Assembly: GCA_017992605.1 (NCBI GenBank)
Contig: JAGOOG010000005.1
Coordinates: 1 to 64,000, forward strand
Length of the DNA stretch: 64,000 nucleotides
Source of the DNA: Deltaproteobacteria bacterium
GTDB taxonomy: Bacteria; Desulfobacterota; Desulfomonilia; UBA1062
Direction: 5' to 3'
Below are positions 42,793-49,981 of the stretch, one piece after another. Made by a program: the position numbers and the translations under genes. Each line of letters starts with the position of its first letter. The stretch's first letter is position 1. Under the pieces are notes generated by a model. The model was not told the DNA's origin and did not search any database. It saw only the letters and a list, made by a program, of their open reading frames with translations.

Positions 42793-43971
42793 CTATCCCC
42801 TCAGCCCGTACAGGGTGAAGCCTTCGGTGTCACCTGCCTCTGCCTTCTTCTTCCCTTCCAGGATGATGTTCCGGAAGTCCTTCCGGGACACGTCCCTGCC
42901 GGCGAGTCCGGCCACGTAGTTCACGATGGTGGGTGCGCCGTCCTTCTTGTAGAGCGCCGACCTGAGATCGGTGGCAACGGGCCCGCCCTGGCCGCCGAAG
43001 GTGATGGCCCGGTCCACCACGACGAGGTGCCTCTTGCCGAGCACGGCGGAGCGGAACTCGTCCAGGGGGAAGGGCCTCCAGAGCCTGATCTTCACCACGC
43101 CCACCTTTTCTCCCTCGTCCCGCAGGGCGTCCACCACCTCCATGGCGGTCTCGCCGTAGGAGCCCATGGTCACGATACAGTACTCGGCATCGTCGGCCCG
43201 GTAGGTCTCAATGGGACGGTACTGCCTCCCTGTGAGCCTCGCCCATTCCTCCCACGCCTTGAGGATGTGCGGATAGGAGTTCCTCACCCCCACCTCGCGG
43301 TTCATCTGGGTCTCAGTGTAGATCTCGGGCATGCCGAAGCACCCCATGGAGACCGGGTTGTCCGGGTGCAGGGCGTTCTTCATCTTGAATGCCGGGAGGT
43401 ACTTCCTGATGAGCTCGTCGTCCTCGTACTCCACCGGCTCGATCATGTGGGTGAGGATGAATCCGTCCAGGTTCACCGCCACGGGCAGCATGACCTCGGG
43501 ATTCTCGGACATCCTGAAGGCGCAGAAGATGTTGTCGTAAGTCTCCTGCCCGTTCTCCACGAAGATGCAGATCCACCCCGCATCCCTGACCATCATGACG
43601 TCGGAGTGGTCGTTCCAGATGGACAGCGGGCTCGACAGCGACCGGTTGGCCAGCGCCATGACCATGGGCAGCCGCATGGCCGCCGCGATGAAGAAGATCT
43701 CGCTCATGAGCGCGAGCCCCTGGGAGCTCGTGGAGGTGAACGTCCTCGCCCCGACCGCCGAGGAACCGCAGCACACGCTCATGGCCGAATGCTCGCTGTC
43801 CACCGGCACGAACTCCGCGTCCAGCTCGCCGTTCGCCACGATCTCCGAGAGGTGCTCCACGATGTGCGTCTGGGGCGTGATGGGGTATGCCGCTATCACG
43901 TCAACGTCGGCCTGCGCCACGGCATCGGCGATGGCTATCGAGACCTCAACACCCTTTCGTACCTTTCCCAT
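42793..43971 (-). CDS. porA: 2-oxoacid (pyruvate):ferredoxin oxidoreductase, alpha subunit
   Basis: The 392-residue subunit has the pyrimidine-binding domain I ('ADVDVIAAYPITPQTHIVEHLSEIVANGELDAEFVPVDSEHSAMSVCCGSSAVGARTFTSTSSQGLALMSE') and domain II with 'VTMGSYGETAMEVVDALRDEGEKVGVVKIRLWRPFP'. The YPITPQT and SSQGL elements are typical of POR alpha. It sits 11 bases before porB and three bases after porD. Confidence 0.95.
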   Translation of the reverse strand: MGKVRKGVEVSIAIADAVAQADVDVIAAYPITPQTHIVEHLSEIVANGELDAEFVPVDSEHSAMSVCCGSSAVGARTFTSTSSQGLALMSEIFFIAAAMRLPMVMALANRSLSSPLSIWNDHSDVMMVRDAGWICIFVENGQETYDNIFCAFRMSENPEVMLPVAVNLDGFILTHMIEPVEYEDDELIRKYLPAFKMKNALHPDNPVSMGCFGMPEIYTETQMNREVGVRNSYPHILKAWEEWARLTGRQYRPIETYRADDAEYCIVTMGSYGETAMEVVDALRDEGEKVGVVKIRLWRPFPLDEFRSAVLGKRHLVVVDRAITFGGQGGPVATDLRSALYKKDGAPTIVNYVAGLAGRDVSRKDFRNIILEGKKKAEAGDTEGFTLYGLRG

Positions 43972-43974
43972 GGC

Positions 43975-44268
43975 TCACTTCTCCTCGCCGATCATGGTGA
44001 TGCACTTCACCGGGCACTCGGCCGCGCAGATGCCACACCCCTTGCAGTAGGTGAGATCCGCCTCGAAGTGTCCCTCCTCGGCCTCGTGGATGCACCCCTC
44101 CGGGCAGTACAGCCAGCAGAACATGCACTTGATGCACTTCTCCTTCTCCACGACAGGCCGCTCCGAACGCCAGGACCCCGTCTCGTACTGCGTGGAGTTG
44201 CCCACCTCCACGACGACCGCACCGATCTCGAGCTCCTGCCACGTGATCTGATCCATCGGTTTCGCCAT
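43975..44268 (-). CDS. porD: 2-oxoacid (pyruvate):ferredoxin oxidoreductase, delta (ferredoxin) subunit
   Basis: A 97-residue ferredoxin-type subunit with two 4Fe-4S motifs, CIKCMFCWLYCP and CKGCGICAAECP, passing electrons from the active site to external ferredoxin. Neighbour spacing to porG (four bases) shows one operon. Confidence 0.95.
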   Translation of the reverse strand: MAKPMDQITWQELEIGAVVVEVGNSTQYETGSWRSERPVVEKEKCIKCMFCWLYCPEGCIHEAEEGHFEADLTYCKGCGICAAECPVKCITMIGEEK

Positions 44269-44272
44269 TGCC

Positions 44273-44824
44273 CTACCCCTTGATCACGACTTCGTTGTAT
44301 GCCCGTTCCATCGCCTTGAGATTCCGCTCGCCCAGCTTGGATCCGAACCGTTCCAGCAGCGGCCCCTTGATGTCATCGATCGATATGAGACCCGTCGCCT
44401 TGATGAATGCGCCGATCATGGTGGTGTTCACGATGGGCCTGCCCAGTTCCTCGATGGCTATCCGGTCGGCATCCACCGCGGCGATCCTGATGGCGGAACC
44501 CTTCGAGGTCTCGACCTCTCCCGGGGCCTTCCTCGTGTTCATGACGAGGACGCCGCCGTCCTTCATGCCCTCCGTGGGGTCGAGGAGGTCCACAAGTCCC
44601 GGGTCCAGGACCACCACCGCATCGGGATTGTAGACCTTGGCCCTGATGTTGATCTTGCGGTCGTCCACCCGGCAGAACGCCACCACCGGCGCGCCGCGGC
44701 GCTCCGGACCGAAGCTCGGAAAGGCCTGGGCGAACCTGCCCGTGTCGATGGCCGCGATCGCTATGAGCTCCGCCGATGTGACAGCACCCTGCCCCCCTCG
44801 CCCGTGGACCCTGATCTCAAGCAT
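44273..44824 (-). CDS. porG: 2-oxoacid (pyruvate):ferredoxin oxidoreductase, gamma subunit
   Basis: A 183-residue subunit with the family opening 'LEIRVHGRGGQGAVTSAELIA', 'FPSFGPERRGAPV' and 'NTTMIGAFIKATG'. It is the first gene of the por operon. The start at 44824 (MLEIRVHG) follows AGGAG by six bases; open codons back to 44908 run through the promoter and are not used. Confidence 0.95.
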   Translation of the reverse strand: MLEIRVHGRGGQGAVTSAELIAIAAIDTGRFAQAFPSFGPERRGAPVVAFCRVDDRKINIRAKVYNPDAVVVLDPGLVDLLDPTEGMKDGGVLVMNTRKAPGEVETSKGSAIRIAAVDADRIAIEELGRPIVNTTMIGAFIKATGLISIDDIKGPLLERFGSKLGERNLKAMERAYNEVVIKG

Positions 44825-44980: not shown

Positions 44981-45889
44981 CTACGAGGCCATTTCTATCT
45001 GCTTCCTGCGCTCCAGGATGAAGTCGAAGAATTTCATCATGAGCGGGGTGGACTTGCGCTTCCTGTTCCGCACCACGTAGAAGTCCCGGACCGTGTTCAG
45101 GTCCCGTATGGGCAGCGCCAGGAGCGTCTTGTTCTTCAGCTCGTTGAGGATGACGTTCCGGGAAAGCACCGCAACGCCGAGATTGGCCTCCACGGCCCGC
45201 TTGATGCCCTCGGACGAGCTCAGCTCCATGGTGACCTTCTTTTCGATCCCGTATCGCTTGAGGACATATTCGATGAGCCCCCTCGTGCCCGAGCCCTCCT
45301 CTCTGAGGATAATGGGCTCAGGTTCCGAGGAAAGGGTCTTCATGGTGAGATGATCCCGGTGTGCCCACCGGTGTCTGGGCGAGCAGACGATGACGAGCTC
45401 GTCCTTCATGAAGAACTCGGCCTGGAGGTCGGGGTGCTTGGGCGGTTCCTGCATGAAGGCGAAGTCGAGCTCCCCCTCTATGCACTGCTCCACCGCCTCC
45501 TGGCGGTTCTGAATGTGCAGCGATATCTCTGCCTTGGGGAAGAGCTCCTTGAACTCACCCAGAAACTTCGGCAGTACATACACGCCCACGGTACTGGACG
45601 CGCCCAGGACGATCCTGCCGACATCACCCGAGCCGAACTCGGTCATGACGGCATTGATCTCGTCGATGAGCCCGAGGAGCCTTTCAGAATACTCGAAGAA
45701 CACCTTCCCTGCATCGGTCAGCGTGATCTTGCGGTTGATGCGGTCAAAGAGGCGCACGTTGAGGGCATCCTCCAGGTCCTTGATCTGGATGCTCACCGAG
45801 GGCTGGGAGAGATGCATCTTCTTGGCGGTCTTGGTGATACTCAAGGTTTTCGCAGCGATATTGAAGATATGGACCTGGTGGATGTTCAT
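44981..45889 (-). CDS. LysR-family transcriptional regulator
   Basis: A 302-residue LTTR: N-terminal HTH ('NIHQVHIFNIAAKTLSITKTAKKMHLSQPSVSIQIKDLEDAL', residues 2-43) and a periplasmic-binding-type effector domain ('IVLGASSTVGVYVLPKFLGEFKELFPKAEISL'). It lies upstream of, and on the same strand as, the por operon across a 157-base gap, and divergent from the small RNA unit. CysL/CbbR-like. Candidate controller of por, itself and the small RNA. Confidence 0.92.
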   Translation of the reverse strand: MNIHQVHIFNIAAKTLSITKTAKKMHLSQPSVSIQIKDLEDALNVRLFDRINRKITLTDAGKVFFEYSERLLGLIDEINAVMTEFGSGDVGRIVLGASSTVGVYVLPKFLGEFKELFPKAEISLHIQNRQEAVEQCIEGELDFAFMQEPPKHPDLQAEFFMKDELVIVCSPRHRWAHRDHLTMKTLSSEPEPIILREEGSGTRGLIEYVLKRYGIEKKVTMELSSSEGIKRAVEANLGVAVLSRNVILNELKNKTLLALPIRDLNTVRDFYVVRNRKRKSTPLMMKFFDFILERRKQIEMAS

Positions 45890-45944
45890 CACGTACCTAC
45901 ACCATAATTTACTTTCGTCTAACATTATCATAAGAGATTTGTAT

Positions 45945-45974
45945 TTGACACGGCCAAAATCGCTCCAGTATAAA
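45945..45974 (+). promoter_or_regulatory. Strong promoter of the small RNA/leader unit
   Basis: Consensus TTGACA (45945-45950), 18-base spacer, TATAAA (45969-45974); predicted start near 45981. It points away from the lysR gene start at 45889. AGAGAT at 45933-45938 lies just upstream. Confidence 0.65.
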
Positions 45975-45980
45975 CGCCGG

Positions 45981-46061
45981 AGCCTATAGCATTTTTTTCA
46001 AGGGCTATAGACCTCCTTTTAGGCCCACTACCACCTCTTATTGAGTGGGCCCTTTTTTTTT
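45981..46061 (+). ncRNA. Candidate small RNA or smr-leader attenuator
   Basis: Between a near-consensus promoter and a perfect terminator lies about 80 nt with no start codon. A first stem pairs CTATAGC (45984-45990) with GCTATAG (46004-46010) over a U-rich loop. The single-stranded link carries GACCTCCTTTT (46010-46020), which contains an anti-Shine-Dalgarno CCTCC, and the terminator loop carries ACCACCTC. C/U-rich loops of this kind are common in sRNAs that mask ribosome sites. The Smr gene begins 16 bases past the terminator, without an evident Shine-Dalgarno, so attenuation of that gene is the alternative. Confidence 0.55.
46022..46061 (+). terminator. Intrinsic terminator of the small RNA unit
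   Basis: GGCCCACT (46022-46029) pairs perfectly with AGTGGGCC (46044-46051) around a 14-base loop, followed by C and nine T (46053-46061). A strong rho-independent terminator on the plus strand that no upstream plus-strand coding gene explains. Confidence 0.92.
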
Positions 46062-46076
46062 GCTAATGATCTATCC

Positions 46077-46784
46077 ATGAAGGATGACCATACCTTCAAC
46101 GCGCCCTTCACGAAGCTCAAGGACCTGAAGGTTGCTGCACGGAAGAAACCTCGGCAGGAGACTCCACGACAGACCCGGCCGGACCCTCGGCCGGGACCTG
46201 GGGCCCCAACGGACGAGACCTCCCTTTTCACGCAGGCAATGGATGGGGTCATGCCCCTGCCCAACGACCTGGTGGTGCCGGAGCCCCTGGACCAGGCCGC
46301 CGTCGTCCGGCAGGTACGAGACACCATGAAGCAGCAGGATCAGGAGGTCATGGATACGTTGCGGGCCCTTGTCACCGGGAAGAGCCGGTTCGACATCACC
46401 TGCACCGGGGAATACCTCGAGGGCCACGTGGTATCCCTCGACCCGAGGGTTCTCAGGCAGCTGAAATCAGGCGAATTCACCATACAGGCCCACCTTGACC
46501 TGCACGGTCTCGTCAAGGAGGTGGCGAGGACAACCCTGAACAGCTTCGTTCAGAATTCCCACGCCATGGGCTTCCGGTCTCTGCTCATCATCCACGGAAG
46601 GGGACTGAAGTCGGACACGGGACCGGTCCTGAAAGAGGGCGTCGTCAGGTGGCTCACCACCGGGACCCTCTCTCATCTGGTGCTGGCCTTCTGCTCGGCC
46701 AGGCCCTGCGACGGGGGCACCGGGGCCATGTATGTCCTGCTCAAGAAACGTCCCGTCAAATCCAGTTGGAAGAGACCTCGGTGA
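46077..46784 (+). CDS. Smr-domain (YdaL/MutS2-C type) protein
   Basis: A 235-residue protein: basic, proline-rich N-terminal part (about 20-50), helical linker, and a C-terminal Smr domain ('IQAHLDLHGLVKEVARTTLNSFVQN', 'LLIIHGRGLKSDTGPVLKEGVVRWL', 'GGTGAMYVLLK') with the DLHG and HGRG motifs of this endonuclease-type fold. Smr proteins cleave or bind nucleic acid, including stalled mRNAs. ATG at 46077 is used because upstream in-frame codons run through the terminator. No Shine-Dalgarno is visible. Confidence 0.9.
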   Translation: MKDDHTFNAPFTKLKDLKVAARKKPRQETPRQTRPDPRPGPGAPTDETSLFTQAMDGVMPLPNDLVVPEPLDQAAVVRQVRDTMKQQDQEVMDTLRALVTGKSRFDITCTGEYLEGHVVSLDPRVLRQLKSGEFTIQAHLDLHGLVKEVARTTLNSFVQNSHAMGFRSLLIIHGRGLKSDTGPVLKEGVVRWLTTGTLSHLVLAFCSARPCDGGTGAMYVLLKKRPVKSSWKRPR

Positions 46785-47833: not shown

Positions 47834-47863
47834 TTGACTTCATGTGCTTTTTTCAGCTAAAAG
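47834..47863 (+). promoter_or_regulatory. Promoter candidate of the EF-G paralogue operon
   Basis: TTGACT (47834-47839), 18-base spacer, TAAAAG (47858-47863). GGGGAGG precedes the ATG at 47897. A 6-bp hairpin GGCACC/GGTGCC (47800-47820) lies upstream. Confidence 0.4.
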
Positions 47864-47896
47864 CCTTATTTCTAGATTTGGCTAAGGGGAGGATCG

Positions 47897-49981
47897 ATGA
47901 GAAAATATCGAACTGAGAATCTCAGGGATGTCATCATCATGTCGCAGTCCGGCGCAGGGAAAACATCCCTCGGCGAGGCATTCCTGTTCAACGCCAAGGC
48001 GACGTCACGCCTGGGCAAGGTGCTCGACGGCAATTCCGTTCTGGACTTCGAGCCCGAAGAGGTCAAGCGTCAGTCATCCATTTTCAGCGCACTGCATACC
48101 TTCAAGTGGAAGAATTCCGGGGTCGTCATGCTGGACACGCCCGGAGACAACAACTTCACCTCGGAGGCCATCCTGGGCCTGAAGTCGGCCGACAATGCAC
48201 TGTTCGTCATCGACGCCATCGATTCCATCAAGCCCTATTCAGAAAATCTCTGGAAACTCGCCGGCGAGGAAGGGGTCACCAGGACATGCTTCATCAACAA
48301 GATGGACAGGGAACGCGCAAACTTCGACCAGGTTCTCCAGGACATCACCGAGGTCTTCGAGATGAAGCCGCTGCCCCTGGTGCTGCCCATAGGCGCCGAG
48401 GAAAGCTTTGCCGGCGTGGTCGACGTGCTCAAGAAGAAGGCCTTCCTCTTTGAGAAGGACGGGTCGGGGGCCTTCAAGGAAGCCCCGGTGCCCGCCGACA
48501 TGGAGGACCAGCTCGAAGAGGTCTACGGCAAGGTCATCGAGGACCTGGCCGAGGTCGACGACGCACTCATGGAGAAGTACCTGGAAGGCGGAGAACTCTC
48601 CCAGGCCGAGCTCGACAGCGCCCTGTCCGCAGGCCTGGCCAGGGGCCTCTTCCTCCCGGTCTTCTGTGGTTCCGCACTGCTGAACATGGGCGTGCAGCCC
48701 CTCCTGGACTTCATGGTGTCCTCCTTCATCTCCCCCGACAGGAGGGCCATCCCCGCGCTGAAGAACAGCAAGGGCGAGACCAAGGAGTACAAGCCGTCGG
48801 AAGACCAGCCGTTCTGCGGATACGTGTTCAAGACCATGAGCGATCCCTACACCGGGACCATGAGCATCGTCCGGTGCCTTTCCGGAACGCTGAGCCCCGA
48901 CTCCAGCGCCTACAACGCGAGGAGCGAGATCAAGGAGCGCATAGGCTCGCTCATCATGCTGGAGGGGAAGGCGCAGAAGCCCCTCGAACTGGTGGGGCCC
49001 GGGGATATCTTCGCCGTCGCCAAGCTCAAGGAGACCAAGACCGGCGACACGCTCCTGTCCGAATCCATCCCCTTCACCCTGCCGAGCCCGGTCTTCCCGG
49101 AGCCCATCATGAACATGGCAGTGAGCCCCAAGACCAAGGCCGACGTCGAGAAGATCATGCCCGCCTTCCAGAAGATCATGGACGAGGATCCGGTCCTGAA
49201 GGTTTTCCGCGACGAGCAGACCGGCGAGTTCATCCTTTCGGGCCTCGGCCAGCTCCACATAGAGATAGCCGTGGACCGACTCAAGAGGAGGTACGGCGTC
49301 GAGGTGGACCTGAAGACCCCCAAGGTGCCCTACAAGGAGACCATCACCGCCAGCGCCGAGGTACAGGGCAAACACAAGAAGCAGACCGGCGGCCACGGCC
49401 AGTTCGGCGACTGCTGGCTCAGGATAGAGCCCCTGGAACGGGGGGCAGGCTTCGAGTTCGTCAATGCCATCGTGGGCGGCGTCATCCCCAGGCAGTACAT
49501 CCCGGCCATCGAAAAGGGCGTGATCGAGTCCATGCAGACAGGGCCCCTCACGGGCAACCCGGTCGTGGATATCAAGGTCACCGTGTATTTCGGCTCCTAT
49601 CACGAGGTTGACTCCTCCGAAATGGCCTTCAAGATCGCGGGCTCGCTGGCCTTCAAGAAGGCCATGGAACAGTGCAGACCCATCCTGCTGGAGCCCATCA
49701 TGAACATCGCCGTGACGGTGCCCGAAGAGTGCATGGGCGATGTCATGGGCGACCTCAACAGCCGCAGGGCGAAGATCGAGGGCATGAACGCCCGGGGCAA
49801 GTACCAGGAACTCAAGGCCCAGATTCCCCTGGCCGAGGTGCTTACCTACGCGGCCAGCCTCACGTCCATCACGTCGGGCAGAGGTACGTTCACCCTGAGC
49901 TTCTCGCATCTCGACCCGGTGCCGTACAACCTCCAGGACAAGATCATCGAGGAGGCAAGGGCGGCTCGGGATGGAAAATAA
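47897..49981 (+). CDS. Elongation factor G paralogue (EF-G-like subfamily)
   Basis: A 694-residue protein with EF-G domain order: GTPase domain, domain II, and domains III-V ('GHGQFGDCWLRIEPLERG', 'EPIMNIAVTVPEECMGDVMGDLNSRRAKIEGM'). G1 reads SQSGAGKTS (16-24), G4 is NKMD (134-137), but G3 is DTPGD (80-84): the GTPase-activating histidine of DTPGH is replaced by Asp84. The switch I RGITI motif is also lost ('VKRQSSIFS'). This is the EF-G-like group beside true FusA, role uncertain (translation-associated or ribosome recycling). First of a coupled run with the next two genes. Confidence 0.88.
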   Translation: MRKYRTENLRDVIIMSQSGAGKTSLGEAFLFNAKATSRLGKVLDGNSVLDFEPEEVKRQSSIFSALHTFKWKNSGVVMLDTPGDNNFTSEAILGLKSADNALFVIDAIDSIKPYSENLWKLAGEEGVTRTCFINKMDRERANFDQVLQDITEVFEMKPLPLVLPIGAEESFAGVVDVLKKKAFLFEKDGSGAFKEAPVPADMEDQLEEVYGKVIEDLAEVDDALMEKYLEGGELSQAELDSALSAGLARGLFLPVFCGSALLNMGVQPLLDFMVSSFISPDRRAIPALKNSKGETKEYKPSEDQPFCGYVFKTMSDPYTGTMSIVRCLSGTLSPDSSAYNARSEIKERIGSLIMLEGKAQKPLELVGPGDIFAVAKLKETKTGDTLLSESIPFTLPSPVFPEPIMNMAVSPKTKADVEKIMPAFQKIMDEDPVLKVFRDEQTGEFILSGLGQLHIEIAVDRLKRRYGVEVDLKTPKVPYKETITASAEVQGKHKKQTGGHGQFGDCWLRIEPLERGAGFEFVNAIVGGVIPRQYIPAIEKGVIESMQTGPLTGNPVVDIKVTVYFGSYHEVDSSEMAFKIAGSLAFKKAMEQCRPILLEPIMNIAVTVPEECMGDVMGDLNSRRAKIEGMNARGKYQELKAQIPLAEVLTYAASLTSITSGRGTFTLSFSHLDPVPYNLQDKIIEEARAARDGK

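Follow-up and report, generated by a model that had tools for sequence, protein, structure and literature searches.

A conserved candidate small RNA gene with an anti-Shine-Dalgarno linker upstream of smr in uncultured Deltaproteobacteria

Between a divergent lysR gene and an smr gene, the 64,000-nucleotide stretch of deltaproteobacterial DNA analyzed here (the window) carries a promoter, a hairpin, and a terminator in close succession, with no coding sequence among them. The question raised by this locus is whether such a unit specifies a small RNA (sRNA) in its own right or the leader of the gene that follows. An earlier interpretation of the window, made from its letters alone (the sequence-only reading), had described the unit at 45945–46061 and proposed either a new small RNA, possibly LysR-controlled and linked to por, or an attenuator of smr. 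Here, the best explanation is considered to be an independent gene encoding a trans-acting sRNA of ∼80 nt, most likely of the Hfq type and blocking Shine-Dalgarno sites, with a probability of ∼0.7.

Architecture and conservation of the element

The features of the locus are collected in Table 1. The boxes of the sRNA promoter match 10–11 of 12 consensus positions in every smr-linked copy of the element, and the window transcript is predicted to fold with an energy of −23.4 kcal/mol (z = −3.1 versus shuffled sequences). At the level of sequence, the possession of its own promoter and intrinsic terminator, with no coding sequence, is what is expected of an sRNA gene. A long U tail is present in all copies, and the nine T residues of the window copy compare with the at least seven expected of an Hfq-dependent sRNA. 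Generic scans passed over both signals: the promoter rule demands T as the final base of the −10 box, and the terminator rule allows loops of 3–8 nt.

Table 1. Positions of the features discussed, in the window and at two further loci
Feature	Position	Strand	Comment
porC, porD, porA (pyruvate/2-oxoacid:ferredoxin oxidoreductase)	42793..44824	−	Conserved neighbors
lysR, divergent	44981..45889	−	Start MNIHQV; Pfam HTH_1 and LysR_substrate
sRNA promoter, −35 box TTGACA	45945..45950	+	Invariant in 21/21 smr-linked copies
sRNA promoter, −10 box TATAAA	45969..45974	+	18-bp spacer
Predicted sRNA, ∼80 nt	45980..46060	+	Start placed near 45981 by the −10 box
Hairpin 1	45984..46010	+	Arms CTATAGC (45984–45990) and GCTATAG (46004–46010)
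Seed	46004..46021	+	GCTATAG arm plus single-stranded anti-Shine-Dalgarno linker ACCTCCTTTTA
Linker ACCTCCTTTTA	46011–46021	+	Read from the sequence
Intrinsic terminator	46022..46061	+	8-bp stem, loop with ACCACCTC, U9 tail
Terminator stem arms	46022–46029 and 46044–46051	+	GGCCCACT and AGTGGGCC; loop ACCACCTCTTATTG
Predicted smr promoter, −35 box TTGAGT	46041..46046	+	3′ side of terminator hairpin; 21/21 smr-linked copies
T run, nine T	46053–46061	+	3′ tail of the sRNA
Predicted smr promoter, extended −10 (TG-C-TAATGA)	46061..46069	+	17 bp from TTGAGT
smr (Smr domain; SmrA/SmrB-like)	46077..46784	+	Pfam PF01713, E = 4e-21
L069, divergent sRNA copy	G010:C4:73419-73501
L068, divergent sRNA copy	G019:C3:7114-7199

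A covariance model (R1) built from 23 copies located the element in 21 of the 24 genomes of the window's family, spanning 10 of 10 genera. The window copy was aligned to this model at 45978–46059 with 98.9 bits (E = 1.6e-18), a score to which that copy itself contributed as one of those used for training. The model detected no element in any of 18 genomes from a sister family (another family of the same class), and none outside the family among 395 genomes sampled across the phylum under stricter filters, with which weak matches can drop out. A DNA search of 60 genomes returned the element in 21, every one from the window's own family; a match from the first search (L024) was dropped because it sits within an open reading frame. 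When 84,980 species were scanned for the pattern, 20 contigs were obtained, all of them from metagenome-assembled genomes (MAGs) of uncultured Deltaproteobacteria, Thermodesulfobacteriota, or Syntrophaceae, including UBA6087, UBA1062, and Phox-21. No Rfam family matched at gathering level, and the relaxed thresholds yielded only weak matches of the kind expected by chance; membership in any Rfam family was therefore rejected.

Conservation was distributed unevenly along the smr-linked copies. Mean pairwise identity was 100% for TTGACA, 96% for the seed GCTATAGACCTCCTTTTNG with its core GCTATAGACCTCCTTTT, and 89% for the terminator hairpin; values of 39, 50, and 49% were obtained for the promoter spacer, the loop of hairpin 1, and the first smr codons, respectively. 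Given the presence of a related copy in most family genomes (21 of 24) and the invariance of TTGACA in the smr-linked copies, the unit stands far above chance. The promoter-hairpin-terminator unit first described from its letters is thus borne out by those letters and by family-wide conservation, and, in the comparison of relatives that had been suggested as a check, promoter, seed, stems, and terminator were all conserved in the family.

In predicted folds, the linker had a mean pairing probability of ≤0.05 in 21 of 24 copies (0.30 in the window copy), the segment ACCACCTC of the terminator loop was mostly open, and the terminator stem was paired with a probability of ≥0.98 in all copies. The exposed anti-Shine-Dalgarno-like stretch anticipated by the sequence-only reading is consistent with these predictions, the linker being unpaired in nearly all copies. 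Within the main set, the stems are nearly invariant, and covariation there is slight and uninformative. In two copies (L014 and L020), hairpin 1 is without its 5′ arm, but the sequence GCTATAG of the 3′ arm is retained. Given this retention, the GCTATAG arm seems, from the alignment, to be conserved as sequence, beyond a role in the stem alone.

Second copies distant from both smr and lysR were found in G013 (L022) and G010 (L023 and L069), together with a weaker one in G019 (L068, E = 0.0017). L069 and L068 have other stem sequences around the same ACCTCC-T-rich linker, and in both the terminator is kept with a changed stem. The alignment that includes these two copies shows compensatory changes, a result equaled by 3 of 500 shuffles. 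Because additional copies occur apart from both lysR and smr, the element is to be regarded as an sRNA gene and not simply as an smr leader. The proposal of a new small RNA accordingly draws support both from the conserved promoter, seed, stems, and terminator and from additional copies at other genomic positions in three species (weak in one case). As a separate observation, L069 and L068 hint at a broader family of sibling sRNAs in these genomes.

Gene neighborhood and a predicted smr promoter within the terminator

The gene order in the family is por-(lysR)-sRNA-smr-holB, the Por, LysR, Smr, HolB, and EF-G-type neighbors having been assigned with Pfam and NCBIfam. The suggested linkage to por holds as synteny only. 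For lysR, the start at MNIHQV was taken, the longer open reading frame to 45931 being mechanical. The gene was detected at E = 1e-60 in 17 of 24 family genomes, and G021 has a further, truncated copy where a contig ends. In G003, G009, and G012, the sRNA and its TTGACA box are kept, and lysR and an upstream CATAAGA block are missing. This block (TATCATAAGA, window 45890–45944) lies upstream of the −35 box of the sRNA, is retained with lysR and lost with lysR, and overlaps the likely −10 box of lysR in lysR-bearing genomes. Judged from its sequence context, it may be the lysR promoter, a LysR operator, or both. The idea that the sRNA is LysR-controlled does not hold as a general rule, given the three genomes that keep the sRNA and TTGACA without lysR and an sRNA promoter that is near-consensus by itself. 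Control by LysR is possible where lysR is present but is not a general property. A second lysR, 82% identical to that of the window and without an adjacent sRNA match, is found in G020 (L077, G020:C80:5922-6815) and could be a paralogue or contamination.

The conserved N terminus of the Smr protein starts at the ATG of 46077. The protein falls below both NCBIfam cut-offs (SmrA and SmrB), scoring 108.5 bits with the SmrA model against a cut-off of 180. smr adjoins the sRNA in every sRNA-bearing genome (21/21); in the three genomes of the family that lack the sRNA, neither smr nor lysR was detected at the thresholds applied, which may reflect loss or an assembly gap. In the sister family, smr was not found; it is present at 44% identity, without the sRNA, in G048 from a distant family.

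In all 21 smr-linked copies, TTGAGT is followed, 16–17 bp on through the T run, by TA, which is preceded by TG in 20 of the 21; the fit to an smr promoter is weak or without TG in L001 and L021. The predicted −10 hexamer (TAATGA) is weak in the window species, and those of other genomes include TATCAT, TATTAT, TATACT, and TAAGAT. The smr start codon lies 6–10 nt past the predicted −10 box (7 nt in the window), except in G008, where the distance is well over 100 nt. Measured from the terminator stem, the ATG follows after 23–28 nt in the smr-linked copies, L019 excepted. None of the unlinked copies keeps this promoter, TTGA and TA having been lost (GTGAGT, TCGAGT, and TACAGC). No consistent Shine-Dalgarno site precedes smr across the smr-linked copies. 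The spacing of the −35 and −10 boxes, within the 16–18 bp expected, and the start codon at the predicted +1 (G008 aside) correspond, in sequence terms, to a leaderless gene, and the sRNA terminator probably also serves as a promoter giving a leaderless smr mRNA. This embedded promoter is what the analysis newly adds to the sequence-only reading. That reading had remarked on the lack of a clear ribosome site before smr; a leaderless mRNA from the embedded promoter would better explain the missing site, and it weakens the case for attenuation.

Target searches, known systems, and alternative explanations

All 16 good genomes of the family, that of the window (G000) among them, encode hfq. In the target search, the 13-mer complement matched only the element itself in its own genome. 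Sites of the form AAAGGAGGTC-ATG gave no clearly orthologous target beyond one genus, and several of those common to that genus are likewise found in G017, a genome without the sRNA. In a search for Shine-Dalgarno-type complements, 89 downstream proteins were clustered; a cluster spanning five genera was rejected as a mixed acyl-CoA-ligase-like family and not one shared gene. Duplex energies over the genes of the window were no better than those of shuffled seeds, 8 of 50 of which did equally well, and the suggested check of local Shine-Dalgarno sites as targets thus gave no overall signal. For an EF-G-like gene (47897), good predicted pairing of the 5′ region (47850–47900) with the linker was obtained (−18.5 to −20 kcal/mol); this gene was rejected as a target, relatives mostly keeping just ordinary Shine-Dalgarno pairing. 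The organism's own 16S rRNA is missing from the assembly, and the match to the anti-Shine-Dalgarno tail uses the general bacterial sequence, ACCUCCUUU, the usual 16S rRNA tail.

Among the closest known systems are NmsRA and NmsRB of Neisseria, in which conserved segments repress several mRNAs by pairing over their Shine-Dalgarno sites (PMC5362039). As in NmsR, stem-loops 1 and 2 are separated by unpaired sequence that contains an anti-Shine-Dalgarno segment, and the next loop contains a second such segment. NmsR differs in having three stem-loops and two siblings side by side, whereas the second segment of the window element sits within its terminator hairpin, which also overlaps a promoter. 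The likeness would be one of working only, on the model of an accessible anti-Shine-Dalgarno linker and a second anti-Shine-Dalgarno loop. The α-r14 or "cuckoo" RNAs (NfeR1 and relatives) have an ultraconserved anti-Shine-Dalgarno motif in unpaired regions among variable stems (PMC10746234), and the window element similarly has a fixed motif of this type among variable stems. By contrast, α-r14 consists of three hairpins, each with CCUCCUCCC, and the window element has one linker, ACCUCCUUUU, and one loop, CCACCUC. Membership in this group was rejected given that neither sequence nor fold showed CCUCCUCCC in three hairpins and that Rfam gave no match.

Lying directly before smr, the unit of promoter, hairpin, and terminator also resembles a 5′ leader in which a conditional, riboswitch-like terminator would govern read-through into smr. 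The presence of smr directly downstream in all 21 element genomes, with its start codon at a near-constant distance from the stem (one exception), and the joint absence of element and smr from three family genomes are consistent with such an attenuator. It is, however, difficult to reconcile with independent copies at other loci without smr, with a terminator stem predicted to be fully paired, and with a separate smr promoter embedded in the terminator. No conserved antiterminator was found across copies, the sole candidate, a GGGC/GCCC pairing, being variable (GAGC, AAGC, ACGC, and GUGC), and conservation is focused on the linker, a segment that a plain attenuator could do without. The attenuator of smr proposed in the sequence-only reading is thereby weakened and appears unlikely.

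Quite improbable, too, is a decoy whose CU-rich single-stranded segments would titrate an RNA-binding protein or 30S subunits without pairing to mRNA. Both segments are conserved in sequence and predicted to be accessible, ACCUCCUUU equals the usual bacterial 16S tail, and no conserved mRNA partner was found, all of which would suit such a role. On inspection, however, no known protein motif was recognized and the GGA loops needed by CsrA are absent, and fast-evolving sRNA regulons commonly lack a conserved target. The embedded smr promoter, present in all linked copies, would further accommodate an inert transcript, the unit serving in cis for transcriptional interference on smr through the overlap of promoter and terminator; the 96% conserved seed and the copies elsewhere would then be left unexplained, making this highly improbable.

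Proposed mode of action and significance

An Hfq-type repressor is favored by analogy, given the NmsR-like arrangement, the presence of hfq in 16 good genomes, and the long U tail. From computed conservation, architecture, linker accessibility, extra copies, and the presence of hfq, we infer transcription, Hfq binding, mRNA pairing, and the nature of the targets as follows. A near-consensus σ70-type promoter would give rise to an sRNA in which hairpin 1 is followed by a CU-rich single-stranded linker that would copy the 16S anti-Shine-Dalgarno tail ACCUCCUUU and by a terminator hairpin that would carry a second CU-rich loop, ACCACCUC, and the long U tail. The linker, and perhaps the loop too, would pair together with Hfq to the Shine-Dalgarno regions of several mRNAs, and their translation would be blocked. 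The DNA of the terminator would also hold the −35 box of smr, and the bases just past the T run its −10 box, from which a leaderless smr mRNA would be produced; transcription of the sRNA may interfere with that of smr.

The element and smr co-occur strictly (smr is present in all 21 genomes with the element and in none of the 3 lacking it), which could instead reflect a tie to smr and not action in trans. One tentative and rather unlikely scheme is that polymerase ending the sRNA occludes the leaderless smr promoter, the locus then acting as one switch that delivers either the anti-Shine-Dalgarno RNA or Smr. If so, the sRNA would block translation led by Shine-Dalgarno sites, and the mRNA of Smr, in this scheme a ribosome-rescue-type nuclease, would escape by needing no such site.

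In the literature searched, no such regulatory RNA is described from these uncultured anaerobes, and nothing relevant was found on an sRNA terminator overlapping the promoter of a leaderless gene. Syntrophic oxidation of fatty acids and butyrate has been associated (PMC13248872) with family UBA1062 of the Desulfomonilia, the probable home of the group. The preferred reading, a trans-acting sRNA that blocks Shine-Dalgarno sites, would mean that these uncultured anaerobes (Deltaproteobacteria/Syntrophaceae MAGs, one of them Phox-21) have an undescribed sRNA family, in which an sRNA terminator compactly overlapping the predicted promoter of a leaderless gene would be an unusual arrangement.
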